Source of the DNA: Planktothricoides raciborskii GIHE-MW2
Lineage (GTDB): Bacteria; Cyanobacteriota; Cyanobacteriia; Cyanobacteriales; Laspinemataceae
Length of the DNA stretch: 64,000 nucleotides
Assembly: GCF_040564635.1 (NCBI RefSeq)
Contig: NZ_CP159837.1
Location: 5,381,001 to 5,445,000 of the forward strand
Direction of reading: 5' to 3'
Shown here: positions 17,386 through 58,957 of the stretch, piece after piece
How the letters are laid out: each line of letters opens with the position of its first letter
Position numbering within the stretch: the stretch's first letter is position 1
Made by a program: the position numbers and the translations under genes
The notes under the pieces: generated by a model
What the model was told of the DNA's origin: nothing
Databases searched by the model: none
Seen by the model: only the letters and a program-made list of their open reading frames with translations

Positions 17386-17394
17386 AGGTGGGGA

Positions 17395-22829: not shown

Positions 22830-22832
22830 AAT

Positions 22833-24703: not shown

Positions 24704-24798
24704 AACAAACCTCTGCTATCGATTTGCGACTCATTGACTATTTTGAAATCTAGTCAATCGTCTTGGTTTAACCTAATCATTTTACCTGTTAATGAAAG

Positions 24799-25104
24799 TT
24801 AACTTTTATTTTCAATGCGTTTGATTCTTGCTTCTAAAGCCTGTAGCTTTTCCTCTAAATTCAGATGATCTGACTCGTTGGTTAAACTATAACCAATTAG
24901 GCGATCGAGAATGTCTCTTTGTCGGATCGACTGTTCCGCCAAATCTCCATATTTTTTAATCAATTCATTCAGAACATCTTTTTGAGCTTCTTGACTAGCT
25001 CTAAATTCCGCTTGGCTTTGCTTGAGTTCGATTTGGCTTTCCTGAAGTTCTCTTTGCACCGCCAACATTCCTTCGATGATTTTTTGCATTTCTTCAAAAG
25101 TCAT
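24799..25104 (-). CDS. Coiled-coil protein of unknown function
   Basis: 101 residues, almost all helical and charged: MTFEEMQKIIEGMLAVQREL, then heptad-like QIELKQSQAEFRAS and a C-terminal LEEKLQALEARIKRIEN. Proteins of this type are frequent in filamentous cyanobacteria and have no assigned role. The middle LIGYSLTNESDHLNLEEKL breaks the coil. It has its own promoter region upstream, with three direct TATTCTAGATAAA repeats at about 25165-25210. No clear partner gene. Confidence 0.6.
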   Translation of the reverse strand: MTFEEMQKIIEGMLAVQRELQESQIELKQSQAEFRASQEAQKDVLNELIKKYGDLAEQSIRQRDILDRLIGYSLTNESDHLNLEEKLQALEARIKRIENKS

Positions 25105-25251
25105 GGCTGCTTCTCCTCGGTTATGTTTTGTTTGATGTGTAAAAAGTCAATTATTCCGGATCAATACTCTAGATAAATATTCTAGATAAATATTCTAGAT
25201 AAATATTCTAGCCCAGATTACAGCGTTTTTCCGATGCGATCGATCCGCCCT

Positions 25252-25442
25252 GTAGGGGCGAAGCATTCCGGCCAAAATTTCGGGTTAAACACAGGAATTT
25301 TTTACCGGAATGCTTCGCCCCTAGCATTCCGGCCAAGATTTCGGGTTAAACACAGGAATTTTTTACCGGAATGCTTCGCCCCTAGCATTCCAGCCAATAT
25401 TTCGGGTTAAACACAGGAATTTTTTACCGGAATGCTTCGCCC
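25252..25442. repeat. 61-bp tandem array of GCGAAGCATTCCGG hairpins, three copies
   Basis: The unit starts at 25263, 25324 and 25385. Each copy has the arms GCATTCCGGCC and CCGGAATGC around CGGGTTAAACACAGGAATTT, and the array is bordered by GTAGGGGCGAAGC and GCTTCGCCC, so each unit can fold back on itself. The same outer arms occur at 47606 (four copies, different core) and 53964 (one copy). Confidence 0.88.
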
Positions 25443-25470
25443 GAACCCAAGATTTAAGATAAAAACCAAA

Positions 25471-43694: not shown

Positions 43695-43969
43695 AGATTT
43701 AGGTTGAGTTTTCAGAACAATTAATTTAACCAATAGCCCAGGTTAAATTAGCCCACAATTAATCTTGTGGATCGCCTGGATGGGGCAGCGATTTTCTTGG
43801 CATTTTCTTGCCATTTTCTTTGCATTTCTTTTTGCAGCGTGGGATTATTGTTCGCGATCGCCCTTAGTAGAATCGCCTTACCCATTTTGACAATTTTAAT
43901 TCTGAAAATTCTACATTCTCGATCATCCGTACCTCGCAGATGAAAATAAAAGATCGTTAGTTGACAACA
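43695..43969. other. Leader between riboswitch and DUF1636 gene
   Basis: Contains TTGGCATTTTCTTGCCATTT and TTTGCATTTC imperfect repeats and one HIP1-like site. No gene. The expression platform of the riboswitch must be at its right-hand end or further along. Confidence 0.4.
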
Positions 43970-44108
43970 CCAGCAAGCGGGTATTCTGACTCAGAGACGC
44001 ATAGTCTCATCACAGTTGCGGGACAGCGCCGGACTTACACCGAACTTTCCCCCTGACGTTTGGTGGCTGATCCCCACCAAAACTCACTGGTTAATCAGAT
44101 TTTACCTG
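43970..44108 (-). ncRNA. Cobalamin (B12) riboswitch
   Basis: On the minus strand the consensus cobalamin aptamer elements are in order: AAAGTTCGGTGTAAGTCCG, the B12-box-like GCGCTGTCCCGCAACTGTGA, then a P-arm GAGACTATGCGTCTC, and CTGAGTCAGAATACCCGCTT. It precedes the DUF1636 and cobW-like genes on the same strand and is expected to reduce their expression when adenosyl- or other cobalamin is abundant. Family recognised by consensus pieces; the exact boundaries are estimates. Confidence 0.93.
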
Positions 44109-44293
44109 AAAGTTTGCACATTTGATCCAAGCATCCCGTAAAAAGGTCGCCGGGAATGAGGGGTTAGTCCTCCATTCCCGGCGACCTGAATTCAAGTTGG
44201 CCAAATATTCCCGGAGACCGGAGAAATTTCCGGATAAATTCCCGGATAAATTCCCGGATAAATTAAGTTCTGAAAAGAAAATATTCCAGCGGT

Positions 44294-44557
44294 CTAAAAG
44301 CTATCATGGTCGGAAGTTCCATCCACTGAAGTTTGGCCAATTCCTAATTGCTTTTTACTTTGTTTTAGCTGTTTCCATAATCCTTTAATTTCTTTATAGG
44401 CAACTGCTGGCGGCAGTTTCCCATTCGTATGTAAACTAGCAATGAACATGACGCGATTGGCAAATTCTTGTAAGTTGGCATTAAATACAAGATTTTCCGG
44501 TTTAACTTGACCATAGTAACGACTACGAGGCTCAATGAAATCAAAACGATTGGTCAT
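44294..44557 (-). CDS. Conserved cyanobacterial protein, DUF7219-like
   Basis: An 87-residue protein with EPRSRYYGQVKPENLVFNAN, LQEFANRVMFIASLHTNGK and EIKGLWKQLKQSKKQLGIG, a pattern I know from small cyanobacterial proteins named DUF7219 and often misannotated as isopropylmalate synthase-like. Entirely helical, no membrane segment, role unknown. Located upstream of the riboswitch but with its own start (ATG 44557). A tandem GGATAAATTCCC repeat (about 44229-44265) lies just after its stop, on the plus strand side. Confidence 0.75.
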   Translation of the reverse strand: MTNRFDFIEPRSRYYGQVKPENLVFNANLQEFANRVMFIASLHTNGKLPPAVAYKEIKGLWKQLKQSKKQLGIGQTSVDGTSDHDSF

Positions 44558-45566
44558 AATTCACTCTCAATTTTGTTTACTAAATTTTTATGGAAAAAAC
44601 TTAGAGAAAATTATTAAATATTCTCTAAAATTTTTAAGCATCAAAAACTTACCGCTATTTATCAGCGATAGATTTATAAATCTAAATCAAAATCGTTTCT
44701 TTGATAAATAACGTTATGTCTATCGATAAAAATTATCATAACCCTAAAAACCTCTTACTAATTATCAATTAAGCCCAGCCAAACACATTTGTCTCTGATT
44801 GCCTGAATTACATTAAATCATCGATATACCTGAGCTTTTATGCAGCAAAAGAATGAGGGATATTTTCCCTCTTGGGTTTTATTAGACTTCTTGGATCATA
44901 AAAAATTGCTATCCCTCGATCGCCCTTAAGTAGGGGAGAGTTTTAGATTCATGCCAAAATTGTCTATTTACTTTTACTGACTCATTTCATTTAATGATAA
45001 CCGATCGCAATCAACTTTGCCAAGTGTTATGGTTATCCGATTAAGATTGCCTTAGCGCTGCCCCGCTTCAAATCTCCGATCCGATAGGGTTTTTCTATCT
45101 AGATCACATATTGCTGTAGCCATTGATACAAATACTTCATGGGCAAATTTGCAGATGATTAAATTTGTGAGTCAAACCGTGTTTCCACTTGTCAGTATAT
45201 TTCCATAAGACTTGGTAGTAGAATAGTGTGATATACTTACTTGCCTCTAGATTGTCCGGTTAAATCTCATTAAATCTCAGTTTAAGGATTAAACATTTCC
45301 GATTCTCCGATACACCTAGATGCTGAACTAATATTTGCCAACAAGTCTTGTTTGGGCGTAGGGTGCTTCTGGTGCGGCGGTTCGGCCCTTCGGCTGCGCT
45401 CAGGACAGGCTTCGCTCAACGACCGGGGGTGCGGGGGCGCAGGGGCGCGGGGGAAAGTGAAAAGTTAAAAGTTAAAAGTTAAAAGTTAAAAGTTAAAAGT
45501 TATGCATAAGTATCACTATTCACTATTCACTATTCACTATTCACTATTCACTCTCCCCTCATCCCC
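44558..45566. other. 1-kb spacer with short tandem repeats
   Basis: No gene recognised. Holds AGTTAAAAG tandem copies (about 45458-45500), ATTCACTATTC copies (about 45510-45555), and a GGTGCGGCGGTTCGGCCCTT block near 45372, all of intergenic-repeat type. The left part (44558-45000) is AT-rich, with the promoter of the 44294 gene. Confidence 0.5.
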
Positions 45567-46640
45567 TCATCCCCCCTGCCGACGGCGGTCTCCCCTGCCC
45601 CCCTGCCCCTGAAGCCCCTCAAATGGTTGATAAGTTCCCCCTAGGGCTTCTACAACCGTGCGAGTATTAGACACCATCATTTTTATATAAGAATCTCCCT
45701 CACTCCCCGGAGCACCAATTGAATCAGAATAAAGTTCTTGGGAGGCTAATTTAACTTGGGCTTCTTGGGCGACGGTTTGAATTAAACTCGGATTAATAGT
45801 CGTTTCGGCAAAAATTGCTGGAACCCCAGTTTTTTTGATTTTTTCTACTAACTCACTCTGGGTTTTGGCGCTGGGTTTTTCTTCGGTACTGACACCAATT
45901 AAAGTCCCGACAACTTCTAGTCCATAAGCTGCGGTATAGTATTGAAAAGCATCGTGAGTGGTGACGAGTTTTCGCTTGTCTGGGGGAATGGTGGCGATTT
46001 GTTGAGCAATCCAGGTATCTAACTGTTGCAATTCCGCCGTGAGTTGGGCGGCATTTGCTGTAAAAATATCCGCATCTTCCGGGGAAATTTCAATTAATGC
46101 ATCGCGAATTCCATTCACCATCGCGATCGCATTGGCAACATCCCCCCAAACATGAGGATCCGGAACTTTTTGCCCTTCATATTTCATATCCAGAGGTTTT
46201 ACCAGTTCTCCCACCGCTAACTTTTTGGCATTCACCCCAGCGGCATTGATCATTCTAATCAAACCCGGTTCTAAGTTATAGCCATTGTAGAGAATTAATT
46301 CCGCTGTTTCTAATGCTTTGATATCTGCGGGTACGGGTTCGTAGGTATGAGGATCCGCACCAGGGTCTAATATGCCGATCAGATTAATTTCCTCTCCAGC
46401 AAGTTCAGCAGTCAAGTCCGTGAGAATGGTACTGGTGGAGACAATCTGCGGTCGATTCCGCAAAGCGGATCGCGAAAGCGAATCGCCACTCCCAGGATCT
46501 GGGCGGATCTCCGCTGCGGTACAGCCAATCAATGCGGCGAATAGTAACCCAATCCCTAGGGTGTTGGTGTATAAGGTAGCGCGAGTTCCGAAACGTCGGT
46601 CTTTTGAGGCATCGCCTCCTTGATGAGTGCTTACTTTCAT
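45567..46640 (-). CDS. mntC: Manganese ABC transporter substrate-binding protein MntC
   Basis: 357-residue metal-binding lipoprotein of the TroA/ZnuA family. Lipobox near residue 40 (LFAALIGCTAAE). The four usual metal ligands are readable: His in GADPHTYEP, His in VPDPHVWGD, Glu in FAETTINPS and Asp in LYSDSIGAPG. The absence of a long His-rich loop and the mntAB genes opposite it favour manganese over zinc. It is transcribed away from mntA with a common 118-base region. The last 12 or so residues (GQGGRGDRRRQGG) come from an intergenic CCCCTGCC-type repeat, so the natural end has been replaced. Otherwise intact. Confidence 0.92.
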   Translation of the reverse strand: MKVSTHQGGDASKDRRFGTRATLYTNTLGIGLLFAALIGCTAAEIRPDPGSGDSLSRSALRNRPQIVSTSTILTDLTAELAGEEINLIGILDPGADPHTYEPVPADIKALETAELILYNGYNLEPGLIRMINAAGVNAKKLAVGELVKPLDMKYEGQKVPDPHVWGDVANAIAMVNGIRDALIEISPEDADIFTANAAQLTAELQQLDTWIAQQIATIPPDKRKLVTTHDAFQYYTAAYGLEVVGTLIGVSTEEKPSAKTQSELVEKIKKTGVPAIFAETTINPSLIQTVAQEAQVKLASQELYSDSIGAPGSEGDSYIKMMVSNTRTVVEALGGTYQPFEGLQGQGGRGDRRRQGG

Positions 46641-46654
46641 AAATCTTTAAACTG

Positions 46655-46706
46655 TTTCATATTTCTTTCATTTTTGTATTGTATGATATTTTCATAATCC
46701 TTTCAT
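46655..46706. promoter_or_regulatory. TTTCAT direct repeats in the mntC-mntA promoter region
   Basis: TTTCAT occurs at 46655 and 46666 and again at 46690 and 46701: two pairs with an 11-base period, that is one helical turn. Such direct repeats suit an OmpR-type response regulator like ManR, which represses mnt genes in Synechocystis when manganese is sufficient. The link to ManR is inference. Confidence 0.5.
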
Positions 46707-46758
46707 TTTTCAGATTGTATTGCTCTCAAAGCAGCCAAAGCCAGAACAGGAGGCCACG

Positions 46759-47556
46759 ATGACTACGATCCAGTTTCCCCTAAATGCCGACATCAATCGC
46801 CGCGAAATTCCTAGCATTACGGTGAGTCATTTAACCGTTGCCTATCGGCAAGTGCAAGCCTTGGTGGATGTGAACTGCGCGATCGCTCGTGGGCGACTGA
46901 CCGGCATTATTGGGCCGAATGGGGCGGGCAAAAGTACCTTGATCAAAGCCATGCTGGGATTAGTTCCCACCGTTGTTTCCGGGGAAAATTGTGGCATCGT
47001 CCTTTATGAAGGCAAACCCTTGGTGAACCAACGGGAAAAGGTGGCTTATGTACCGCAGCGATCGCAGATTGATTGGACATTTCCCGCGACAGTCTGGGAT
47101 GTGGTGATGATGGGACGGGTGCAGAAAACCGGCTGGTTTCGTCCTTTTTCCTCCGTCAGTCGTCGTCTAGGGGCTGAGGCTTTAGCCAGAGTGGGCATGA
47201 GTGATTATCGCGATCGCAAAATCGGCGAACTCTCTGGAGGACAACAACAGCGGGTGTTTTTAGCCCGTTCCTTAGCCCAAGAAGCGGATATTTACTGTTT
47301 TGATGAGCCCTTTGTAGGCATTGACCAAAAAACCCAAGATATTATTTTCGATATTTTTCACGAACTAGCCGACCGGGGCAAAACCGTCGTAGTCGTGAAC
47401 CATGATTTAGGCAATTCGATTCAGAATTTTGATGATTTGATTTTATTAAATCGGCAGGTAATCGCCTGTGGGTCGCGCGAACAAGTGCTCAAGGCAGAAA
47501 ATTTATATCAAGCTTATGGCGGAAAAGTTGTATTTTTTAATAGTGAAGCCGCATAG
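46759..47556 (+). CDS. mntA: Manganese ABC transporter ATP-binding protein MntA
   Basis: 265 residues from the ATG at 46759, preceded by AGGAGG at 46748-46753. Walker A GPNGAGKST, signature LSGGQQQRVFLAR and Walker B IYCFDEPFVGID, in the order normal for ABC ATPases of the metal family (ZnuC/MntA). Reads away from mntC; mntB follows, separated by a 447-base gap that holds the 84-bp repeat array. Start codon at 46720 (TTG) would add 13 residues but lacks a binding site. Confidence 0.94.
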   Translation: MTTIQFPLNADINRREIPSITVSHLTVAYRQVQALVDVNCAIARGRLTGIIGPNGAGKSTLIKAMLGLVPTVVSGENCGIVLYEGKPLVNQREKVAYVPQRSQIDWTFPATVWDVVMMGRVQKTGWFRPFSSVSRRLGAEALARVGMSDYRDRKIGELSGGQQQRVFLARSLAQEADIYCFDEPFVGIDQKTQDIIFDIFHELADRGKTVVVVNHDLGNSIQNFDDLILLNRQVIACGSREQVLKAENLYQAYGGKVVFFNSEAA

Positions 47557-47605
47557 TATTAGGGTGGGCAAAATTTGCCAGCAACGAAGCGGCAGGCAAA
47601 TATAT

Positions 47606-47935
47606 CTGTAGGGGCGAAGCATTGCGGTAGTAAATCCAGGCTTGTCACCAATAGATTATTGCCCGCAATGCTTCGCCCAGATCCGATATCTGTAGGGGCG
47701 AAGCATTGCGGTAGTAAATCCAGGCTTGTCACCAATAGATTATTGCCCGCAATGCTTCGCCCAGATCCGATATCTGTAGGGGCGAAGCATTGCGGTAGTA
47801 AATCCAGGCTTGTCACCAATAGATTATTGCCCGCAATGCTTCGCCCAGATCCGATATCTGTAGGGGCGAAGCATTGCGGTAGTAAATCCAGGCTTGTCAC
47901 CAATAGATTATTGCCCGCAATGCTTCGCCCCTACC
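47606..47935. repeat. 84-bp tandem array of GCGAAGCATTGCGG hairpins, four copies
   Basis: Copies start at 47606, 47690, 47774 and 47858, nearly identical. Each is an inverted repeat with arms GTAGGGGCGAAGCATTGCGG and CCGCAATGCTTCGCCC around AAATCCAGGCTTGTCACCAA. Lies between mntA and mntB. The 84-base period (28 codons) keeps frames open on both strands, so long open frames here are artefacts. Confidence 0.95.
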
Positions 47936-48003
47936 AAACAGGAATCCTCCTATTTGATATCATTATTTGAGATAATTATTGATTGAGTCAATATCGATTT
48001 TTT

Positions 48004-48891
48004 ATGTGGGAACTATTAAGCGAACCTTTACAATATGCTTTTATGCAGCGATCGCTGGCGATCGCGATTTTAGTGGGTTTAATTTGTGCGGTTGTCGGTA
48101 GCTATTTAATGGTGCAACGGTTAGCCTTACTCGGTGATGCTATTAGTCACTCCGTACTCCCAGGATTAGCGATCGCCTTTCTTCTCGGTGGCAATATTTT
48201 TATCGGCGCCTTTATTGCCGGGGTGCTAAGTACGGTCATTATTGCCTGGATTCATACACGATCGCCCATCAAAGAAGACGCGGCGATGGGCATAGTTTTG
48301 TCGGGATTTTTTGCCCTGGGAATTACTCTGATTACGGCGATCCAAAAACAGAATAAAATTGACCTCAACCATTTTTTATTTGGCAATATTTTAGGAGTCA
48401 CTGCTGACGAAGTCCGCGATACTGCCATCATCACCATTGTAGTTTTATTAGTCGTGATTTTTCTCTACAAAGAACTCTTATTTTACACCTTCGATCCATT
48501 GGGGGCTGAATCCGCCGGATTGCCCGTCAATCTACTCAACTTTGGTCTAATGGTGCTGATTGCTTTAACCGTAGTTGCCAGCATGAAAACCGTCGGCGTT
48601 ATCCTAGTTTTATCATTACTCATTACTCCGGCTGCCACCGCTTATTTATTAGTCAAACAACTGCATCAAGTAATGATTTTAGGAGCAGTAATTGGCATTA
48701 TTTCCAGTATCAGTGGAATGTACCTGAGTTATTACTTGAATCTCCCCTCTGGGCCAGCCATTGTATTAGTAGCTTCTAGTTTCTTTATCTTATCTTTATT
48801 CTTTAGTCCCCGTCACGGCATTTTCACTCACCGTCAAACAAATCCTAGGGAATTTGCCATCTGGAGAGAAATCAAAAATTTTTGGAAATAA
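48004..48891 (+). CDS. mntB: Manganese ABC transporter permease MntB
   Basis: 295-residue integral membrane protein of the ABC-3 (ZnuB/MntB) family with about eight or nine membrane segments. DAISHSVLPGLAIAFLLGG and FGNILGVTADEV are conserved pieces, and LLSLLITPAATAYLL near the end is typical. The ATG at 48004 (MWELLSEPLQYAFMQRSLAI) is preferred; a TTG at 47983 would add seven residues. Transcription must pass the repeat array from mntA or start from an internal promoter. Confidence 0.93.
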   Translation: MWELLSEPLQYAFMQRSLAIAILVGLICAVVGSYLMVQRLALLGDAISHSVLPGLAIAFLLGGNIFIGAFIAGVLSTVIIAWIHTRSPIKEDAAMGIVLSGFFALGITLITAIQKQNKIDLNHFLFGNILGVTADEVRDTAIITIVVLLVVIFLYKELLFYTFDPLGAESAGLPVNLLNFGLMVLIALTVVASMKTVGVILVLSLLITPAATAYLLVKQLHQVMILGAVIGIISSISGMYLSYYLNLPSGPAIVLVASSFFILSLFFSPRHGIFTHRQTNPREFAIWREIKNFWK

Positions 48892-49469
48892 GTCCCCCGA
48901 TCTCCCTTCCCCTCTTGGACGTAGCAACACTAATCTTTTAAGCCGCAAGCATTGCGGGCGCAAGTAGGGGCGATCCGATCCGCGATCCCCGCGCCCCTAC
49001 ATGACATAACGATTTTTCCTACAGGGGTTTTCACGCCCTACAAGATCGGCTCTTTGGATCCACTTCATCCCCGATTCACTTGACACTTTTTCGCAACTAC
49101 CTTGATTTAACTTTATTTAAACTTATTGAAAAATATTACCGATAAATGAGGGCGGTTGAAAGCCGAATCGATATGTAACTTCACCAACCCCGAAGCGGTG
49201 GGTCGGGTCGATCGCCCATCGATCGCTTGCTAAAACCCTGATAAAACAAAGCTTTTACGCTTATTTGGGGACGCTGGGCAGGTCAGCGATCGCCGGTTAT
49301 CTGAGCCAAAAGGCGATCGGGGCAGAGCAGAATCGCCAAAATCTTAACAAACCTTAATAAATTTTTATTGATAAAGATTGTAGAATAAAGTGACTTATTA
49401 ATAAAAATAGTCAATAAGCTTTTGTCTGCTTGAATTGATTAACCCATTCTGTAACCCATCTTGTAACCC
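48892..49469. other. Spacer upstream of isiA
   Basis: No gene. Contains CCGCAAGCATTGCGG and a GTAGGGGCG...CGCCCCTAC hairpin (about 48964-49000). Just upstream of isiA an AT-rich stretch with TTTTTATTGATAAAGATTGT (about 49362-49382) is a weak candidate Fur site; the sequence does not match the consensus well. Confidence 0.4.
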
Positions 49470-50493
49470 ATGCAAACTTACGACAATCCAACGGTGAAAT
49501 ATGACTGGTGGGCTGGTAACGCCCGGTTCGCCGACAAAAGCGGCTTATTCATTGCCGCTCACGTTGCCCAAGCGGCGCTGATTACCTTCTGGGCGGGTGC
49601 ATTTACCTTGTTTGAAATTTCCTGGTTTGACCCCACCCTACCCATGAGCGAACAAGGACTAATATTGCTTCCCCACCTAGCAACCCTGGGTCTGGGTGTT
49701 GGGGATGGCGGCAAAATCGTGGACACCTACCCCTACTTTGTCGGAGGTACAGTTCACCTGATTTCCTCAGCGGTACTCGGTGCGGGGGCCTTGTTTCACA
49801 TTCTCAAAGCACCCGAAGACCTGAAAACTGCCTCCGGTCAAGCCAAAAAGTTTCACTTTGACTGGAACGATCCCAAACAATTGGGGCTGATTTTGGGGCA
49901 TCATTTACTGTTTTTAGGCATGGGCGCTTTATTGTTAGTAGCCAAAGCCATGTATTGGGACGGACTTTATGATGCGGCAACTCAAACCCTGCGCGTGGTG
50001 ACAGAACCAACTCTCAATCCATTTGTGATTTATGGCTATCAAACTCACTTTGCCAGTATTGATAATTTAGAAGACCTGGTGGGCGGTCACATTTATGTAG
50101 GCGTGATGCTCATTGGTGGGGGAATTTGGCATATCTTAGTTCCGCCAATGGGCAAAGAAAGTCTTAACTTTCTCCGGGGAAGCAATTCTTTCTTACTCAT
50201 TAGGTGGCATTGCCTTAGCTGGTTTTGTAGCCGCTTATTTCTGTGCCGTTAATACCCTCGCCTATCCGGTGGAATTTTACGGTCCAGTGTTAGAAGTAAA
50301 AATGGGAATTACTCCCTATTTTGCCGATACGGTTAACTTACCTTTGGGCGAACATACTCCTCGTGCATGGTTAGCCAACGCTCACTTTTTCCTCGCATTT
50401 TTCTTCTTGCAAGGACATTTGTGGCACGCTATCAGAGCAATGGGGTTTGATTTCAAGCGAGTAGAAAAAGCTTTGAATTCTGTGGAAGTTTAA
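49470..50493 (+). pseudogene. isiA: Iron-stress chlorophyll protein IsiA, frameshifted
   Basis: IsiA is the six-helix chlorophyll a antenna made under iron shortage that rings photosystem I. The first part is normal ([40 protein letters not shown], chlorophyll-binding His residues in several helices). Near 50146-50152 (PPMG then KES instead of a WAKKVL-type sequence) the frame shifts: the correct sequence continues in another frame as [20 protein letters not shown] and ends [17 protein letters not shown] at 50493. The total length of 1024 bases is not a multiple of three. As read, the last helix and its His ligands are lost. Could be real decay or an indel error. Confidence 0.9.
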
Positions 50494-50631
50494 TTCTTAG
50501 GAATTACATGATTCCAGCAACCCGGTTGATTGGGTAGCTATGGATGCCAGCCATAAGTTTCCTAAATTTTCCTAGAGTTTCCTAGATACAAAACCGGGTT
50601 TTCTCAACCGCTCCTCACACTATTTTTAGTT

Positions 50632-50802
50632 ATGAACTGTCCTTGTTGTTCGGGAAAAGTCCTCCGGCATATCGGTCGCAATGGTTTGTACTGGTATTGC
50701 CCAAGTTGTCGCCAAACTATGCCAGTTTCCGAAGAAGTTAATCGGCTGTTTTTGCAGCCGGAGGTTTGCTCAAAATCAAGTCCTCAAGTTTATATGTTCT
50801 GA
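50632..50802 (+). CDS. Small zinc-ribbon protein
   Basis: A 56-residue protein with two CxxC-type motifs, NCPCCSGKVLRH and WYCPSCRQTMP, fitting one zinc ribbon. Such short proteins are common in filamentous cyanobacteria, with no known role. It sits between isiA and isiB in the same direction but has separate neighbours' spacing, and palindromic AAACCGGGTTT repeats precede it, so I do not think it is part of the isi unit. Intact. Confidence 0.65.
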   Translation: MNCPCCSGKVLRHIGRNGLYWYCPSCRQTMPVSEEVNRLFLQPEVCSKSSPQVYMF

Positions 50803-51002
50803 TGAAGCCAAGATTATCGCTGCAAGCGATTGAACAATGACAGAAATAAAAGCACCGATTCTAGAGGTAGGTAAAATGAGCATTTTTTTGCCTAAAACAT
50901 ATAGCTTTTAATGATTTTTTTGCCAAATTATTTAGAGATATTAGCAAAAAATACTCATAACCCTAAAGCGCTGACTAAGAAGGATTAATCTAGGAGAAAA
51001 GT

Positions 51003-51515
51003 ATGGCCAAAGTTGGTTTATTTTATGGAACACAAACGGGAAATACCGAAACGATCGCGGAAATGATTCACAAAGAACTGGGTGGCGATAGCGTTGTTGC
51101 TTTGCACGATATTTCTGAGGCAGAAACCAGCGATTTTGGGGATTACGATCGCATTATTATTGGCTGCCCAACTTGGAATGTGGGAGAACTTCAATCTGAT
51201 TGGGAAAGCTTCTAGGATGAATTAGACAGCATTGATTTTATTGGCAAGAAAGTGGCCTATTTTGGCGCTGGCGATCAAATAGGATATGCGGATAATTTTC
51301 AAGATGCCATGGGAATTCTCGAAGAAAAAATTACCTCCCTTGGGGGGCAAACCGTGGGTTATTGGCCGACAGATGACTATGATTTTACCGAGTCGAAAGC
51401 AGTTAAAAATGGTAAGTTTGTCGGCTTGGCGATCGATGAAGATAATCAGTCAGATATGACCGGTCTCCGCGTGAAATATTGGGTGGATCGACTAAAACAA
51501 GAGTTTGGCTTGTAA
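51003..51515 (+). pseudogene. isiB: Flavodoxin IsiB with an in-frame TAG
   Basis: Flavodoxin replaces ferredoxin during iron starvation. Read through, it has 170 residues, the normal long-chain size. FMN-phosphate loop GTQTGNTETIAE starts at residue 9, followed by IIIGCPTWNVGELQSDWESF. There a TAG (51213-51215) replaces what is normally a Tyr/Leu-like codon (homologues read SDWEGFY or similar), and the frame continues normally: DELDSIDFIGKKVAYFGAGD, QIGYADNFQDAMG and the end VDRLKQEFGL. A good binding site (AGGAG) precedes the ATG. The truncated 70-residue chain could not bind FMN properly. Confidence 0.9.
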
Positions 51516-51657
51516 AGGTTTCTGTCTTTCCTTAAAAAGACGGGGAATTGATAATTAAGGATTTACTCGGAAACCGGGTTTCCCAAAAAAACTCGGTTTC
51601 TATTCCTAGCCTGTCACAATCGAGAAAATTTATTACAAATCAAAAGGAGGTTTTCCT

Positions 51658-52599
51658 ATGTCTTTATCACCGGATGCACTGTGGATTAATGTTAGCCCCG
51701 CGTTAGAAAAATTCAATCGCCCGCTATTAAAGCAGTTATCGGCACAAACCGCGATCGCTAAATGGGAATATAGTCAAACTCCCGACGAACCCACGTCTTT
51801 AGAAATTGCTGTAGATTTACTCCATGATTATTTAAAAGATCGCCAACAGCCAATTCATTTACTCGGACATAGTACCAGCGGACTATTAGGATTAATGTAC
51901 GCCCGTCGCTATCCAGAAAAAGTGCGATCGCGTAGCGTTGCGGATGCAACATCGCTCACACTTCTCTCTGTCGGAGTGCATCCTGCGGTTGATTGGCAAG
52001 CCCATTATTACGCACAACTCCAAGTCTTGCCTTGTTCTCGGTAAATCATTTTAGCCCGAATGGTTTACAACTTATTTGGCAAGCAATCTCATGTCGTTAC
52101 CAAAGAAATCATCAAAATATTAGAAAACGATCTAATGAGTTCTTTATCACCTCATAGTTTATATCAAAGATTTAGTATGTTTCCGGGCAATGCACCAGTT
52201 CCTATGTTAATTTGTGGCAGTGATAACGATTTCGTGGTTGACTCTAATTTATTGCATGGATGGCAGCCTTGGTTAAAAGAAGGCGATATTGCATCCGCAA
52301 CGCTACGCGATGTTGCATCCGCAACGGTTCGCGATGTTGCATCCGCAACGGTTCGCGATGTTGCATCCGCAACGCTACGCGATGTTGCATCCGCAACGGT
52401 TCGCGATGTTGCATCCGCAACGCTACGCGATGTTGCATCCGCAACGCTACGCGATCGCATATGGTCATGTCCTGGAGGCCGTTACTTTTTTCAGTATTTC
52501 CATTCGCAACTGGTCAGCGAACAAATTACTAAATTTTGGCAATTGTCCGGTTTATTTCCTAAGCAGCGAAAAAAATATGCCATGTTAGTTAGGGAATAG
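51658..52599 (+). pseudogene. isiC: IsiC alpha/beta hydrolase, interrupted and carrying repeat insertions
   Basis: Third gene of the iron-stress cluster, an alpha/beta-hydrolase-like protein. The nucleophile elbow is visible (IHLLGHSTSGLLGLMYARRY). A TAA at 52042-52044 interrupts the frame after QLQVLPCSR; the same frame continues IILARMVYNLFGKQSHVVTK, and homologues have a Gln there, so CAA to TAA is the likely change. Two insertions of the same 24-base unit disturb it: one reverse copy near 51929-51952 (SRSVADATS) and seven direct copies at 52291-52458 (DVASATLR/DVASATVR). A perfect AAAGGAGG precedes the ATG. The product is not expected to function. Confidence 0.85.
52291..52458. repeat. 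24-bp in-frame tandem repeat in isiC, seven copies
   Basis: Seven units of GCATCCGCAACGCTACGCGA plus TGTT, alternating with a GGTTCGC version (order: A B B A B A A, the last ending GATCGC). 24 bases equal eight codons, so the frame is kept on every strand. A single reverse copy lies at about 51929-51952. Confidence 0.95.
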
Positions 52600-52977
52600 T
52601 TTACGCATACATTTTGATTTATTTTGAATTTATGTTCAATTTTTAATTGCTGATTAGCGAGGAAATAACGAAGTAGGTGAACATAATTAATTGCACTTTT
52701 CGTTCCCCTGCGTAAATCTTTGGATTCCCGCATATAGGAAGGATGCATAGGAGAGAGATTCGTAGGAGAGAGAAGAGAGAATATCTTTACTAGGCATCTC
52801 TTTACTCTTTCCTCTTTTCTTCTAATCGGGTCTGTGGTGAATTTATTTCTGCCCGTAAACTTATATCGTTATGCCAATTTTTTTTCTATTTAATCGGCTT
52901 AATCGGCTAATAATTTAAGAAATTATTGCTGCAATTGCGAGATTAATTTGGGCGCAAGCATTGCGCCTCTACGGTTT
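52600..52977. other. Spacer between isiC and queG
   Basis: 378 bases without a clear gene. Contains GAGAGAGATTCGTAGGAGAGAG short repeats (about 52750-52775, split here as GAGAGAGATTCG and TAGGAGAGAG) and GGCGCAAGCATTGCGCCTC (52951-52970) near the queG stop, a palindrome shared with other spacers. Confidence 0.4.
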
Positions 52978-53919
52978 TTAACCTTCACAATTTCCCAAAT
53001 TAGCCCTAGCATTCCGCCGCCACATTTCGGGTTTAATCCGCCGCAAAGCCGAAGCGGGAAAACGCCGATTCCATTCGTCTTCTGATAACTCTGCCAGTTC
53101 TGCCAAAGTCGGGGCAAGATTCTCTGGATAAGGCTCAAATTCTTTCACATCTGTAGGCTGGGCAAACCGTTGATTCCAGGGACAAACATCTTGACAAATA
53201 TCACAACCGGCTACCCATCCTTGTAAATTAGACTTAATTTCATCCGGTAAATCTTCTGCCCGGTTTTCAATCGTATGATAGGCAATACAACGGTTAGCAT
53301 CAACCACAAAAGGCTTAACAATAGCCTGAGTAGGACAAGCTTCAAGGCAGCGATTACAAGTGCCACAATGTTGGGTATGGGCGCGATCGCCTGTTAATTT
53401 CAGATTCGTCAAAACCTCCCCCAAAAACACCCAAGATCCATACTCACGAGTAATCAAATTCCCATTTTTAGCAATCCAACCCAGACCAGCTTGTTGCGCC
53501 CAAAACTTATCAGAAATTGGCCCTGTATCCGCATAATAACGGGCTTTAATTCCGGGGGCTTGTGCCTCTAACCAAAGAGAAAAAGCTTTCAATTTTTTAT
53601 CCAATACCCGATGATAATCTCTGCCCCAACCATAGCGAGAAATTTTGGCAATTTTTGGCTCGTCAGAATGTTGATATGGGGTATAATAATTTAATGCCAC
53701 AGAAATCACCGATTCTACATCGGGCATCACTTGACGAATATCTTGGCGTTTGGGATTAGCCATCCATTGCATATCTGCTTGATAGCCATGATTTAACCAT
53801 GATTGTAAATGGCTAACTGCTGAGGAATCAGCCTCATCTACTAGAGAAATGCCCACTTTATGAAAGCCAAATTCTTGGGCTTTTTGTTTAATTTGGTTAC
53901 TGGTAATTGGATAATTCAT
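52978..53919 (-). CDS. queG: Epoxyqueuosine reductase QueG
   Basis: Reduces epoxyqueuosine to queuosine in tRNA, using a cobalamin and two 4Fe-4S clusters. 313 residues: N-terminal catalytic domain (VISVALNYYTPYQ, ARYYADTGPISDKFWAQQAG, GLGWIAKNGNLITREYGSWV) followed by CGTCNRCLEACPTQAI and CDICQDVCPWNQRF, the cluster ligands. The C-terminal domain is shorter than in E. coli QueG, as usual in cyanobacteria. The ATG at 53919 lies beside a stretch (about 53897-53955) that is also found, partly duplicated, at 61609-61665. Cobalamin dependence links it to the CobW/riboswitch and cbiT genes. Confidence 0.95.
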   Translation of the reverse strand: MNYPITSNQIKQKAQEFGFHKVGISLVDEADSSAVSHLQSWLNHGYQADMQWMANPKRQDIRQVMPDVESVISVALNYYTPYQHSDEPKIAKISRYGWGRDYHRVLDKKLKAFSLWLEAQAPGIKARYYADTGPISDKFWAQQAGLGWIAKNGNLITREYGSWVFLGEVLTNLKLTGDRAHTQHCGTCNRCLEACPTQAIVKPFVVDANRCIAYHTIENRAEDLPDEIKSNLQGWVAGCDICQDVCPWNQRFAQPTDVKEFEPYPENLAPTLAELAELSEDEWNRRFPASALRRIKPEMWRRNARANLGNCEG

Positions 53920-53963
53920 GCATGGAATAATCTTGATTTAATGATATAATATTTGCAGGGGCG

Positions 53964-54034
53964 GTAGGGGCGAAGCATTCGGGCGATTAATTTCGGGGTA
54001 AAAACAAATAATTTATTACCCGAATGCTTCGCCC
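53964..54034. repeat. Single copy of a GCGAAGCATTCGGG hairpin
   Basis: GTAGGGGCGAAGCATTCGGG and CCCGAATGCTTCGCCC enclose about 35 bases, a fold-back element. Same outer arms as the tandem arrays at 25.3 and 47.6 kb. It sits at a precise junction upstream of queG (see finding). Confidence 0.85.
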
Positions 54035-54044
54035 TTATCCAGTA

Positions 54045-54072
54045 GTAGGGTGGGCAAAATTGCCCACCCTAC
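54045..54072. repeat. GTAGGGTGGGCAAAATTGCCCACCCTAC palindrome
   Basis: A perfect 28-base fold-back (GTAGGGTGGGCAAA/TTGCCCACCCTAC). Other copies: 57036-57065, 58089-58119 (decayed centre), 61576-61605, 61665-61692 and 62545-62574. Always in spacers, often next to a stop codon, as a terminator might be. Confidence 0.9.
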
Positions 54073-54078
54073 AGGCAG

Positions 54079-55425
54079 TTATTTTTCCCCAGTGATTCTC
54101 AAATATGCCCGAATCACATTAGATAAATCAAGCAACACCTTTTCTCCTGCTATTATGTTGATTAAATAACGTCGCTTCAAAGATTGCAATCCGTTAATCA
54201 GCGCAATTGGTGACAGGTCTAAACCTTGCTTTAATTCTTCCTTAGATATCGGCTTATCCCATTGGCTTAATTTTAACATAATCTGTTCTTCTATCGGGGA
54301 TAATCGCTGGAAAAACTCCTTAATTTGTAATTGAGTATCAACGGGGATAATTAGGCAATCTTCAGCTAAAAACTCAGACACTTTGCCGCCAAAAACATGG
54401 CTGATTAAACTAGCAATATCTTTTAAGTAAGCCGGATGTCCTTCATAGGCTGTCATTAAACTTGACAAATTGCGATCGCCTGACAATCCCAGAGATGTAA
54501 AAAAATTGGGATCGGTTAAACCTTTTAATTCTAAATACTTGACTGGTGATAAATTGTCGTTGAAGCTGAACATCTCTTGAGATTGTTCCTGACTCAATAA
54601 TATCGCACAGCTTTGATGTGTAATTTCTCGCAAACTGCTAAACAAAGTTTTATAGTCTTCATATTCGCTTTTATATTCTCCTGCCAATTGTCCAGGGGTA
54701 AACAACTCTTGCACGTCATCCAAGATTAGCAAGCATCTTTGCTGAGATAAAATATTAATTAATTGACTAATGGCGTTGTCAGTAATAATCAGGTTATCTA
54801 AATTGCCATTTGCACAAATATCTGTAATTATGCTATCTAAAGACCGGGAAAACTTAAGGCTTTTCCAGACCACCACATCAAACTTTTGCAGGTTGAGGTC
54901 AACAAACTTTTTCACTAGGGTAGTTTTCCCAATTCCCGGTAATCCCAAAACCGATATCAAACGAGTATTTTCCTCTAGTACCCAATGGGATAAAGTTTGT
55001 AGTTCGGTTGTGCGATCGCAAAAATAGGCGATACTCGGCGCGATCGCTAAATCCCGATACTCGGTTTTTTTGTTTATTTCCTCTGTCTCAGGGGTTGATG
55101 TGCTACTGGGTTGAATATTGGGATGACACCAAGTAATATGACTGTTGACCAATCCAACAAACTGAGAATTTATTACTCTCTCAATTGTCCAACAAAAATT
55201 AGCTCTAGTTACTTTTTCATCTAACTCTTCAGATAACTGTTTAAATAACCAACGACTGGTATCCCCAATATAGTTTGTATCGTATCCATGTTCGTCGGCA
55301 ATTTGACTGTATGTTTTACCTTCCCACAGACCTTTAACCACAGTTTTTTCTAAGTCGTTGAGGTGTTTGCCCGCTTGCTTCTCTACGAGGCGATCGACCA
55401 ACTGCAACACTTCTGTAATCGTCAT
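54079..55425 (-). CDS. NB-ARC STAND ATPase with vMAP-type N-terminal HTH
   Basis: 448 residues from the ATG at 55425 (MTITEVLQLVDRLVEKQAGK), which begins the cyanobacterial vWA-MoxR-associated N-terminal HTH domain (EKTVVKGLWEGKTYSQIADE, HGYDTNYIGDTSRWL). Then NB-ARC: Walker A GLPGIGKTTLVKK, Walker B LLILDDVQELF, and the C-terminal winged helix (SPIEEQIMLKLSQWDKPISK). Most such proteins end in WD40 or TPR repeats; this one stops after the winged helix, so it has no sensor domain of its own. It could be truncated or a partner for another protein. Function possibly in signalling or anti-phage defence, as for other STAND proteins. Intact. Confidence 0.85.
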   Translation of the reverse strand: MTITEVLQLVDRLVEKQAGKHLNDLEKTVVKGLWEGKTYSQIADEHGYDTNYIGDTSRWLFKQLSEELDEKVTRANFCWTIERVINSQFVGLVNSHITWCHPNIQPSSTSTPETEEINKKTEYRDLAIAPSIAYFCDRTTELQTLSHWVLEENTRLISVLGLPGIGKTTLVKKFVDLNLQKFDVVVWKSLKFSRSLDSIITDICANGNLDNLIITDNAISQLINILSQQRCLLILDDVQELFTPGQLAGEYKSEYEDYKTLFSSLREITHQSCAILLSQEQSQEMFSFNDNLSPVKYLELKGLTDPNFFTSLGLSGDRNLSSLMTAYEGHPAYLKDIASLISHVFGGKVSEFLAEDCLIIPVDTQLQIKEFFQRLSPIEEQIMLKLSQWDKPISKEELKQGLDLSPIALINGLQSLKRRYLINIIAGEKVLLDLSNVIRAYLRITGEK

Positions 55426-55642
55426 ACAAACGCTGGTGGTATAGGTTACAGCCATTATAGCTTACCTTGGCTCCAGAAAATCAGGTTTTTTCAGGGGTTT
55501 TTGTTACATTTTGTTACCAAATTACCTAGAAAATCAGGTTTTTTTCCGATTGCGTGGTTCAGACCGGGGAATTTAAACTCTTTACAGAGGGAACTAAAGT
55601 TTCTCATTGTCAACTGTCAATCTCACGACGGTTAAGTGATTT

Positions 55643-56215
55643 ATGCTGGAGAAAATCCTGAATTTTATTACTCCCGGTCCGCTGAACGAAAGATTTGGTT
55701 TTGGAGCCAGAGTTTTTTCCAGTTGGATTAGTTTAGGGCTTGGGGTTAGGGTTAGTCAATATACTGATATCAGGTCTTGGAGGCACTCTAAGTTGGGAAA
55801 ACTGTAGTAGGAGGTTTCATAGGAGGACTTGTTCTTTCTTGTGGTTATGGTTTGATTGGGGTCGGAATAGATTTTATTCGAGGACGGAGAGTTGAATATC
55901 CAGGCTGGTACTGGTGGGTCTTCCCTATTGCTACCTTTTTTGTCATACTTTTATCGCTGACCTTTGGGCTTTTTGGCATTTTCTTGGCATTTGCAGGAAT
56001 AAACTCCCAAAATTGCCCGACTTTGGAGATATGCCTCAACCTTCTAATATAGATCCCGATAAATTTCGCCAAGAATTAGGAAAAATGAAGGTTGAAGACC
56101 TTCTCAAGGATTTTGGAAAAAACTGGAGCAACTTGATAACCAATCTCAGCTTAACCCAGAAGAAAAAAAAGTAGTTAAGAAAATCAGAGGCTTAGATTCG
56201 CGCCAAATTGCGTTC
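55643..56215 (+). pseudogene. Decayed membrane-protein gene
   Basis: Pieces of one coding region in three frames. Frame one from the ATG at 55643: MLEKILNFITPGPLNERFGF. Frame two, about 55810-56025: GGLVLSCGYGLIGVGIDFIR with WYWWVFPIATFFVILLSLTF, two membrane segments. Frame three, about 56010-56160: LPKLPDFGDMPQPSNIDPDK, and a last frame EKLEQLDNQSQLNPEEKKVV. At least three frameshifts separate them. It may be the 5' part of the AHH gene that follows. No family assigned. Confidence 0.55.
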
Positions 56216-56407
56216 TAGACTACAAGAGATACTTATTGATGATGAAAGAGAAATTTTGTTTATTTTGCTGTTAAAGTTACTAGGTTTTGTTCAAAAAAAA
56301 CCAAAAATATGATGAATCACGAACACGAAAAAATTTTGGTCTTCCTGGTCTGTTTGGTCTATTCCAGAATGGATCTGCAAACCACTTAAATACAACCAGG
56401 AGAATAT

Positions 56408-56995
56408 ATGATTAAATATCATAGCGCTACTGGAGACTTAATTATTAAAGATCCTAACAATCAAGAAAAAGAATACAGGGTAAATTTATATAACTTGCTT
56501 CCGAAAGATATTAACGAAGAGCAAAAAGAAGCAATTGCAAAGACTACAGAAAAAAAAATATGCAAGCGCACGTGATGGTATTCATCATAAGCATCACATT
56601 ATTCCAGTCCAGCTTTGCAAAAAACACCCCCTAATTAGGGAAGCTGAACGCTACAGAGTTTTCAATAAAGATGGGGATGAAAATTTAATGCTTTTGCCTA
56701 TAAATTTTCATAAAAAAAATCATACTGAAGGCTCAAAATACTATACTACAATTCTAGGTATTCTAGACGATCAATGGCACGCATTCAGCAAGATGATTTA
56801 GATACAGATCCAGATGAAATTAAACAAACTATTCTGGAAATTGTTGCAACAACTAGAGATTACTTGACTGAGTTGTTACAGATAGCAGGAAGCACAATAC
56901 GGGATGATTTTCTTTCACCTGATTATCCTGATTCCTGGCTGCTAAATAACCAAGACTTACGCATTACCTCTATATTGAGCAGTGGCAATTCGTAA
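56408..56995 (+). pseudogene. AHH/HNH-type nuclease toxin remnant
   Basis: Starts MIKYHSATGDLIIKDPNNQE with a good binding site (AGGAG). A run of nine A (56550-56558) puts the next part in another frame: YASARDGIHHKHHIIPVQLC, LMLLPINFHKKNHTEGSKYY, a typical AHH/HNH nuclease core of polymorphic toxins with paired His residues. A second frameshift near 56790 leads to LDTDPDEIKQTILEIVATTR. Without the breaks the protein would be about 195 residues. The size and the A9 run make a read error or slippage possible at the first break, but two breaks and the decayed neighbour suggest a pseudogene. Confidence 0.65.
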
Positions 56996-57035
56996 ATTGT
57001 CACTACATATTGAGTAATTATAGCACAAAGCCCCG

Positions 57036-57065
57036 GTAGGGTGGGCAAAATTTTGCCCACCCTAC
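57036..57065. repeat. GTAGGGTGGGCAAAATTTTGCCCACCCTAC palindrome
   Basis: Perfect 30-base fold-back just downstream of the AHH remnant, the same element as at 54045. Confidence 0.9.
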
Positions 57066-57151
57066 ATAATTACATAACTACAATTACCACAACCCCTGCA
57101 CGGATTGCTATAGAATATTCATAGAATTTTTCCAAAGAGTCAAAATTATTT

Positions 57152-57381
57152 ATGTCATCAACAGCGATCGCAGATTCGGTAGAGATGGTAGAAGCTTTAC
57201 CCACTGAAATCCAGCAGCGAGTGGTCGATCATTTGCGCGAGTATATTGCTGATTTACGGGATGAACAAGCGGTGGGATGCGTCCTTTGCTCGAACGCAGT
57301 CAGCGTTGGTGGCAGCAGCGCACAAGCGAAAAAGAACGGGCAGCAGGAAAAGCGAGTGAGATGGATTATGAGCAGTTATGA
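57152..57381 (+). pseudogene. RelB-like antitoxin, frameshifted
   Basis: Begins with a normal antitoxin N-terminus (MSSTAIADSVEMVEALPTEI, QQRVVDHLREYIADLRDEQ). Then the frame slips: in another frame one reads WDASFARTQSALVAAA and in a third AKKERAAGKASEMDYEQL ending at a TGA (57379-57381) that overlaps the ATG of the toxin remnant. Expected: one 76-residue protein ending KERAAGKASEMDYEQL. Two single-base slips are needed. ATGA overlap is the normal antitoxin-toxin junction. Confidence 0.7.
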
Positions 57382-57545
57382 AATCTGAAGTTATTCCTTC
57401 GTTTTGGACTGAATATCGCAAGCTAAGTGATGATGTTCGGCAACGTGATATGAACGTTTCTTTGGCTAAATTGCTTCGTAAATTTGTGCCAGAAGTTCTA
57501 TATGACCGATCGCAATCAAGGTTCTCAACGGCGAAGTATTGCTAA
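57378..57545 (+). pseudogene. RelE/ParE-like toxin remnant with a foreign tail
   Basis: Starts at the ATGA junction, MKSEVIPSFWTEYRKLSDDV, the usual start of cyanobacterial RelE-type toxins. After about 25 residues (VRQRD) the sequence changes to MNVSLAKLLRKFVPEVLYDR, which is not toxin-like and looks like a piece of another gene. The catalytic C-terminal part of the toxin is missing, so it is inactive. Confidence 0.6.
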
Positions 57546-57551
57546 CTATTG

Positions 57552-57799
57552 TCATCGCCAGTTATTTTCTTGTAAGGATTTCATATCTTCCCGAAACTCT
57601 TCAACGCCATAATGAATGCAAATGCCACGACTTCCGAGCAAATGTTGAAACTGAAGTTGAGACATTCCTGCTAGATAACTGGCTTTAGCCAGAGATATTT
57701 TTTCTTTTTCAAATAGCATGATAATAATTTCCAGCATCAAGTCTTTTTCTGATAGGCTGGGCTGGCTTTGACCACTTCATCGGAAATCACTAAGCTCAT
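57552..57799 (-). pseudogene. UPF0175 antitoxin-like gene, frameshifted
   Basis: Start ATG at 57799: MSLVISDEVVKAS. One frame break near 57750 is followed by SLSEKDLMLEIIIMLFEKEK, then ISLAKASYLAGMSQLQFQHL, LGSRGICIHYGVEEFREDM, the UPF0175 family pattern (helix-turn-helix, antitoxin-like). Only one base seems to be gained or lost. Normally these are about 90 residues and sit beside a PIN toxin, which is absent here. Confidence 0.7.
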
Positions 57800-57869
57800 T
57801 TAATTGCTCCTGAACCCCTCAAGCAAGTTTAAGGTTTTGGCATAACTGTATAATATGTTAATCTATCTA

Positions 57870-58018
57870 CCCCTCAAACATACCCGTTTCAATATTAATT
57901 GGCAACGATTTTCCCATGATTTCCCTCTTCCAAAGAGCGATCGCACTTGTGTCTCATATATGCGATCGCCCCTCAAAGCAAATTCTGCTTTACTGTAGCG
58001 AGGTTGTCTCACTGTCAT
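57870..58018 (-). pseudogene. Damaged duplicate of the 77-residue gene at 61272
   Basis: From the ATG at 58018 it reads MTVRQPRYSKAEFALRGDRI, YETQVRS and then leaves the frame; the DNA (to about 57870) still matches the intact gene at 61272-61505 in the second half, CATACCCGTTTCAATAT and GATTTTCCCATGATTTCC. The copy also shares upstream sequence with it. Fragment of a segmental duplication. Confidence 0.75.
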
Positions 58019-58088
58019 AACTTTGACCTGTGATGAAAAGATGGTTCTGCTGTGATTATAACTCAGGACTTTCGCACCGAATCCACGG

Positions 58089-58119
58089 GTAGGGTGGGCT
58101 GGCATTTTGCCCACCCTAC
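58089..58119. repeat. GTAGGGTGGGC...GCCCACCCTAC palindrome, decayed centre
   Basis: GTAGGGTGGGCTGGCATTTT with GCCCACCCTAC. Same element as at 61576 in the duplicated segment; the centre has diverged (TGGCATTTT versus AAAATTTT). Confidence 0.85.
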
Positions 58120-58174
58120 ATAACTGAAACTATGCTAAGATTAAATAACTAACCAATTGCCGTAATTAATGTTT

Positions 58175-58387
58175 TTAATGCGCGGCGATCGCTTCTTCTT
58201 CAGTCGCACAAACACCACTTGATATTGCCTGTTTAATCATATCTCGGATATCTGGACGGGATAAAATTCTATAAGCCTGACGTTCCGCACTGCGCCGTTC
58301 CAAAGCAGCCGTCAGTGCCAGTACATCCTCATGGACATCTTCAGGGGATAATAACTCGGCGTTGGGTTCTGGAACTTGTTTGGTCAT
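58175..58387 (-). CDS. Small antitoxin-like partner of the PIN protein
   Basis: 70 residues, MTKQVPEPNAELLSPEDVHE, LALTAALERRSAERQAYRIL, SGVCATEEEAIAAH. I do not recognise a family, but the gene follows the PIN-domain gene by 3 bases on the same strand, so the two are translated together. That makes it the likely antitoxin, in toxin-first order. The tail EEEAIAAH is shorter than usual. Medium-low confidence in role, good confidence that it is a real gene. Confidence 0.55.
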   Translation of the reverse strand: MTKQVPEPNAELLSPEDVHEDVLALTAALERRSAERQAYRILSRPDIRDMIKQAISSGVCATEEEAIAAH

Positions 58388-58390
58388 AGT

Positions 58391-58957
58391 TTAATTACCG
58401 TAATTTTCTGCTAAGGTTTCAATTAATCGATCGCTATAAAATGTTCCTTGCTGCTGGCACATTTTGAGCAACTGTCGAATCTCATCTTTTGTTAAAACTC
58501 CGTCAAGTCCCGCACGTCCCAGGACACCGGGAAATCCGGTTAGGTTTAATCCCAGTTGGCGAGCCACCTGACGTGCTGCTTTCTCATCTAAAAGAATCAT
58601 AGCAACATCTAGGTTTTTTCGGTGCTGCATGAGAACGATTGCTTCCGCTTCCGCCAGGTCATTGTGCCAATCTGAATTAGCGGATTTTTGTAATTGAGCA
58701 ATGCGCTTTGCCACTGCTTCTGCCTGTGTTTTTTCTGAATCAGTTAATTCTTCAACAACCACAAATCCCTCAGCAATGAGTTGATTCACTTCATCTATCC
58801 AGCCATGAACATTTAGTTCCTCTAGCTCAGATGGGGTAATATAAATCAACGAAAAGTATCGCTTAAGCAAATCTATTCGGCCACATTGAAAGGCAGAAAC
58901 CATTGGGCCAGTGTTGGAAATGGCAATTACTTTATCGACTTCTGTGGTTTCAAGCAT
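58391..58957 (-). CDS. DUF3368 PIN-domain protein
   Basis: 188 residues of a PIN-like ribonuclease: VIAISNTGPMVSAFQCGRID at the start (family form with Ser/Asn instead of the usual Asp), NDLAEAEAIVLMQHRKNLDV with an acidic cluster, and MILLDEKAARQVARQLGLNL, typical DUF3368. The final segment GVLGRAGLDGVLTKDEIRQL is common to the family. Active-site acidic residues are largely there (Glu-Ala-Glu, Asp-Glu), though the first Asp is an Asn, so activity is uncertain. Confidence 0.8.
   Translation of the reverse strand: MLETTEVDKVIAISNTGPMVSAFQCGRIDLLKRYFSLIYITPSELEELNVHGWIDEVNQLIAEGFVVVEELTDSEKTQAEAVAKRIAQLQKSANSDWHNDLAEAEAIVLMQHRKNLDVAMILLDEKAARQVARQLGLNLTGFPGVLGRAGLDGVLTKDEIRQLLKMCQQQGTFYSDRLIETLAENYGN

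Follow-up and report, generated by a model that had tools for sequence, protein, structure and literature searches.

Three very probable recent pseudogenes, isiA, isiB, and isiC, in the iron-stress cluster of a Planktothricoides lineage

RESULTS AND DISCUSSION

Organization of the isi locus

The stretch of DNA analyzed here, referred to as the window, comprises 64,000 nucleotides of Planktothricoides raciborskii GIHE-MW2, whose genome is represented by a single contig of 7.22 Mb with a completeness of 99.16%. Its forward strand harbors homologs of isiA, isiB, and isiC, with a small open reading frame (ORF) located between the first two. None of these three genes is uninterrupted, as each gene of a functional isi cluster would be: isiA carries a frameshift, isiB an in-frame TAG, and isiC an in-frame TAA. 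The first-pass annotation had described all three genes as broken, each otherwise keeping a full-length frame, and both statements were upheld when the lesions were read directly, the frames being well preserved beyond them.

The 5′ frame of isiA (positions 49470 to 50252, forward strand; 260 codons) retains IsiA homology to approximately codon 226, beyond which it specifies a frameshifted tail. It matches positions 1 to 217 of the 321-position profile TIGR03041 (E value, 7.9e-95) with a score of 318 bits, which is below the 335-bit cutoff. The remaining IsiA residues are encoded in another frame (50152 to 50493, forward strand), which is open to the normal stop and matches profile positions 215 to 321 (E value, 6.2e-47). 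Membership of the IsiA family is thus carried by two neighboring frames, and isiA does not encode one intact protein. When isiA was aligned as DNA with eight relatives, out of 60 intact isiA ORFs available, a net 5-bp deletion was apparent at positions 50146 to 50147 (forward strand; the exact placement is that of the aligner), all eight relatives possessing five extra bases at about this site. The frameshift formerly placed near position 50150 is thereby confirmed, with the frame being lost near position 50146. On the opposite strand, positions 49863 to 50040 (reverse strand) display homology to IsrR, the RNA antisense to isiA (Rfam RF01419; 121.4 bits against a gathering score of 52), and this homology remains strong despite the broken target gene.

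Located at positions 51003 to 51515 (forward strand), isiB is a long-chain flavodoxin gene of full length with an internal stop, as judged from the profile matches of its read-through product. The latter exceeds the cutoffs of both NF006736 (flavodoxin FldA; E value, 3.3e-77; 258 bits versus 202) and TIGR01752 (E value, 1.8e-68; 229 bits versus 147), and the gene therefore qualifies as encoding a long-chain flavodoxin. The in-frame TAG noted at position 51213 (51213 to 51215, forward strand) was verified by direct reading and from the ORF list. It occupies codon 71 of 170, a position at which 91 other aligned proteins carry Y (66 proteins), F (23 proteins), S (1 protein), or L (1 protein), and past it the frame is open again to its normal end at position 51515.

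The alpha/beta-hydrolase-like gene isiC (51658 to 52599, forward strand) is likewise of full length with an internal stop, and it additionally contains two in-frame inserts. Its assignment is based on homologous ORFs of about 240 to 300 amino acids, which lie 3′ of isiB in the majority of loci compared; its product scored below the cutoff of PF00561 (Abhydrolase_1; 22.6 versus 25.8 bits) and returned no NCBIfam match. The TAA codon (52042 to 52044, forward strand) corresponds to codon 129, at which 61 relatives possess Q (24 sequences), E (13 sequences), or other residues (24 sequences), and the frame beyond it is open to position 52599. The first insert, of 8 residues (about 51931 to 51954, forward strand), holds a repeat core in inverted orientation, while the second, of 56 residues, is made up of a 24-bp tandem array of 7.2 copies (52283 to 52455, forward strand). 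None of the 61 relatives has 4 or more residues at the former site or 15 or more at the latter, where the maximum is 10. Because both inserts keep the frame, neither disrupts the gene on its own. The TAA at position 52042 and the repeat insertions, both of which the first-pass annotation had listed, were thus recovered, the insertions being in frame. The core of the 24-bp unit, GTTGCATCCGCAACG, is present in 37 exact copies across the genome and occurs in isiC in frame and in both orientations; at least one of five other copies inspected resides inside another ORF of over 400 amino acids.

Between isiA and isiB, a 56-amino-acid cysteine-rich peptide is encoded by an intact ORF (50632 to 50802, forward strand) which is identical in the sister strain SR001 (see below). 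The peptide (CPCC...YWYCPxCRQxMP) has matches in 19 of 80 isiB loci, SR001 included, and in 15 of these 19 the match is placed upstream of isiB at a distance of no more than about 400 bp (L067, L068, L073, L076, L080, L083, L094, L096, L099, L105, L109, L110, L115, L121, and L146). In the others, it is situated some 2 to 4 kb downstream (L069 to L071) or 5 kb upstream (L093) of isiB. Neither Pfam nor NCBIfam yielded a match to the peptide at an E value of 0.001. Its ORF is intact amid an otherwise dead isi cluster.

Occurrence of the lesions in a second strain

The closest locus listed in the species-genome collection, which may omit records of genomes very close to that of the window, was that of Planktothricoides sp. 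SR001 (L067), a draft genome binned from a nonaxenic culture. Across window positions 43940 to 58510, SR001 is 99.5 to 99.95% identical to the window at the DNA level, and the sample of the lineage consists of these two strains. Comparison with related strains, a check proposed in the first-pass annotation, revealed the same three lesions in SR001, identical in the DNA alignment. No differences between the strains are present in isiA or isiC, while isiB differs at three sites, two of which are silent and one of which creates a TGA in SR001 at codon 6, a position occupied by Leu in all 91 other aligned proteins. The lesions are thus found in independent data, and later decay, as expected of a pseudogene, is evident in the SR001-only TGA and absent from isiA and isiC; by virtue of this extra stop, isiB at least is still decaying. 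The main text of the SR001 genome paper contains none of the terms iron, flavodoxin, pseudogene, and isiA, and no publication combining isiA with Planktothricoides was found in the literature collection searched. A search of a plasmid collection (near mode) returned no match.

Apparent lesions may arise through errors of sequencing or assembly, and the isiA lesion is a small indel, an error type of long-read assemblies. There is also a precedent in another genus: an isiA pseudogene is named in Thermosynechococcus SCTE542 in the available portion of the original report (PMC7005997), which used a genome version that was later replaced, and the available portion of the report on the revised genome gives a much lower number of pseudogenes and lists IsiA for every strain in its comparison (PMC8209445). 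This revision is a warning about single assemblies. In the case of Planktothricoides, however, the identical three lesions recur in SR001, which was assembled from Illumina HiSeq reads at a stated coverage of 150-fold and has a separate culture record, and two of the three are stop codons rather than indels. As the deletion and both stops recur in two separate assemblies, ordinary sequencing error is very unlikely; it was rejected as the cause, and we accord such errors almost no probability. Chance resemblance is excluded because sequence on either side of the lesions is matched by the models TIGR01752, PF00421, and TIGR03041 and by the isiC relatives; the lesions are, moreover, present in SR001.

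The ORFs flanking the cluster (46720 to 47556, 47983 to 48891, and 52978 to 53919), which we take to be ABC transporter-like and QueG-like genes, have open frames in the window and no interruption in SR001. Further features of the window were noted in the comparison with SR001. An 84-bp tandem array of 3.9 copies with 100% matches (47602 to 47930) lies between two ABC transporter-like genes, and its place is occupied in SR001 by a run of N. Many single-base indels and substitutions relative to SR001 are found at positions 55735 to 58390; when the six read-through frames of positions 55456 to 58391 were compared to Pfam, only UPF0175 (E value, 1e-17) and a marginal AHH nuclease match were obtained. 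In addition, three ORFs within positions 17287 to 25467 (17395 to 20766, 21045 to 22829, and 22833 to 23516) are without counterparts in the compared part of SR001, and this region is perhaps a strain-specific island.

Search for second copies

A family search of the 7.2-Mb single-contig genome for further isiA and isiB copies, also suggested in the first-pass annotation, found none. The only flavodoxin above the TIGR01752 cutoff is the broken isiB; a second flavodoxin was rejected, as TIGR01752 otherwise matched just one stretch, at 21 bits, within a 634-amino-acid ORF. SR001 possesses no other flavodoxin above the same cutoff. PF00421 detected two long open genes (519 and 461 amino acids), presumably encoding the photosystem II proteins CP47 and CP43, in addition to the broken isiA, and TIGR03041 agreed; a replacement IsiA/Pcb protein was rejected, given that only the two long photosystem II genes and the broken isiA were matched. 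Three plant-type ferredoxins exceed the TIGR02008 cutoff, none of which contains a stop. The earlier claim that loss of the cluster would leave the strain unable to form the IsiA antenna or to substitute flavodoxin from this locus thus stands as regards the disruption of all genes and the lack of a second copy, while the incapacity itself we infer from the genome sequence: that the strain would be unable to make IsiA or flavodoxin is a well-founded prediction.

Distribution and relics of isi genes in relatives

The first-pass annotation had further regarded such a loss as unusual for a cyanobacterium, a view that was not borne out by the relatives, by the family counts, or by a published survey, all of which point to common absence. 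The 58 other relatives examined, which belong almost entirely to the same order, include 30 with a long-chain flavodoxin above the TIGR01752 cutoff and 28 without one. Within the family itself (13 genomes, the window's included), isiB is intact in five (G004, G006, G007, G011, and G012), broken in one, and not found in seven, and isiA is intact in four (G003, G006, G007, and G012), broken in three, and not found in six. Across the phylum, among 386 genomes with a completeness of 90% or higher (nonphotosynthetic lineages included), flavodoxin exceeded the cutoff in 113, and the isiB of the window was the only gene listed above the cutoff with an internal stop; below the cutoff, decayed flavodoxin pieces were observed in G193 and G363, and half a gene was observed in G281. 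Absence of flavodoxin is therefore common, as judged from these genome sequences, while genes still of full length but interrupted by a stop are seldom encountered. Of the 80 cyanobacteria from freshwater, brackish lakes, and soil considered in the available portion of the survey, 39 possess flavodoxin, whose presence correlates negatively with iron (PMC5322553).

A genome of the same genus (G001; 95% complete) yielded neither isiA nor isiB. A clean deletion scar is not claimed in this genome, as the genes flanking the cluster are on different contigs with other neighbors and the sole 52-bp match beside the upstream gene is apparently part of a dispersed repeat.

Several relatives harbor partial or disrupted genes. 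The three broken isiA genes of the family are those of the window, of G004 (a frameshift), and of G011 (an internal deletion of about 260 codons). In G004, the isiA ortholog extends over two frames (L183, positions 4265 to 5244) beside three intact IsiA/Pcb-like genes, and isiB is intact; this frameshift is documented in one assembly. The isiA genes of Phormidium pseudopriestleyi FRX01 (L070, positions 623 to 848) and G011 (L031, positions 2120 to 2345), which are probably the same organism, retain reference codons 1 to 21 and 283 to 338 only, and isiB and isiC are open in both loci. In Oscillatoria sp. HE19RPO (L071), all three isi frames are open. Among the 30 flavodoxin-positive relatives, G054 carries one early in-frame TAA in isiB (L182, positions 6988 to 7499) and a complete isiA homolog on the same contig, while the flavodoxin gene of G021 (86% complete) is split between frames. 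Fragmentary isiA is also found in G026, G030, and G044, those of G026 and G030 possibly adjoining contig edges.

Tempo of decay

Conserved columns were compared with 55 isiA, 91 isiB, and 61 isiC other proteins, with SR001, duplicates, and length or identity outliers excluded. At near-invariant columns (at most one sequence departing), isiA shows 1 private change in 157, and isiB and isiC show none in 42 and 29, respectively; as many private changes or more were present in 18 of the 55 other isiA sequences. Because the isi frames are otherwise well preserved, the loss looks recent, and selection probably acted on the genes until not long ago. The scarcity of private changes may signify either that the loss is too recent for relaxation to be visible or that constraint lasted until lately.

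The same preservation could be accommodated if the genes still worked through recoding, that is, by stop read-through or programmed frameshifting, as the frames are kept and conserved sites show hardly any private changes. Recoding would, however, have to deal with a TAG, a TAA, and a frameshift, together with a TGA in SR001; furthermore, isiA has lost a net 5 bp relative to all eight aligned relatives, and most relatives encode IsiA, IsiB, and IsiC in open frames. Continued function by this route is consequently extremely improbable.

A wider comparison was based on 36 window ORFs of at least 100 amino acids, of which three had no counterpart in the SR001 stretch; four non-isi ORFs were not included. 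The 33 resulting control ORFs (34,449 bases) differ between the window and SR001 by 19 synonymous, 17 nonsynonymous, and 2 stop-changing codons. These figures bear on whether gene decay is genome-wide in the lineage, with the isi cluster as one case, a scenario compatible with the pseudogene reading. One control ORF has an internal stop in SR001 (the counterpart of window positions 13152 to 13604, at codon 78 of 151), another has lost its terminal stop (the counterpart of positions 34321 to 36156), and tandem repeats are abundant in the window (37 rows); yet the immediate neighbors of the cluster are full length, and a low-power coding-potential scan of the window pointed to no other clear broken gene, such that general decay appears unlikely. 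Upstream of isiA, a stretch of about 240 bp (49146 to 49385) contains five substitutions relative to SR001, a rate of about 2% compared to 0.11% in the control ORFs, for an interval picked after the changes had been seen; it is possibly a decaying promoter.

Whether the loss was favored by selection, through a benefit from having no IsiA, flavodoxin, or IsiC, rather than tolerated under relaxed constraint, may be considered from the kind of change. If point mutations are random, the expected share of stops among stops plus missense changes at invariant sites is 0.22, whereas two of three such changes (P about 0.13), or three of four with the SR001 stop added (P = 0.037), were stops, P values which are biased since the locus was chosen for its lesions. 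Drift in iron-rich water would account just as well for the losses seen repeatedly in relatives, and selected loss is, in our assessment, quite improbable. A more specific version, in which the lineage was selected to shut off the whole antenna and flavodoxin program in quick succession while IsrR and the 56-amino-acid peptide keep a separate function, is even less probable.

Proposed course of the loss

Considering the above, we regard it as very probable from the sequence evidence that isiA, isiB, and isiC of this Planktothricoides lineage represent three recent pseudogenes. The shared lesions would predate the split of the window strain and SR001. Under iron shortage, no IsiA ring would form around photosystem I and ferredoxin would not be exchanged for flavodoxin, and the cell would thus depend on ferredoxin and iron uptake. 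Selection to keep the cluster may have been relaxed by a habitat with enough iron, an explanation taken from the literature on flavodoxin loss, and the cluster would be heading to disappearance, as in the same-genus genome G001. The available text of one report describes Planktothricoides as blooming in fresh and brackish waters (PMC5460452).

While surveys tend to score presence or absence, a step between the two is caught here at the nucleotide level in two strains. The strain pair represents a natural isiA/isiB/isiC null in which iron limitation on ferredoxin alone may be tested. Moreover, the family offers states from which losses may be ordered, namely isiA without isiB (G003), isiB without intact isiA (G004 and G011), both genes, broken genes, and neither gene.

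Comparison with known systems

The locus resembles the isiABC operon known from cyanobacteria such as Synechocystis PCC 6803 in its gene families, in the order of isiA, a small ORF, isiB, and isiC, and in the presence of IsrR within isiA, yet differs from it in the disabling mutations of all three main genes and in the repeat inserts of isiC. The Synechocystis counterpart of isiC is presumably sll0249. The available portion of one study reports that isiA, isiB, and sll0249 are cotranscribed in Synechocystis and that ssl0461, a small gene adjacent to isiAB, is induced by iron stress (PMC3516471).

Loss of flavodoxin is described for iron-rich or freshwater phototrophs in the available portion of the 2015 survey (PMC5322553), and the only long-chain flavodoxin is similarly lost here; the section of the survey concerned scores presence and absence, whereas the genes described here are near complete and in mid-decay, isiB together with isiA and isiC. 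The isi relics of relatives (isiA in G004, G011, G026, G030, and G044; isiB in G054 and G021) are likewise partial or disrupted. Among those checked, isiA is broken beside an intact isiB in G004 and beside intact copies of isiB and isiC in G011, and G054 has an intact isiA and a broken isiB; unlike the window, none of these three has all three genes broken. The Planktothricoides cluster is therefore a new, well-documented case of a known kind of gene loss, in which the less ordinary aspect is that all three genes are near complete and yet dead.
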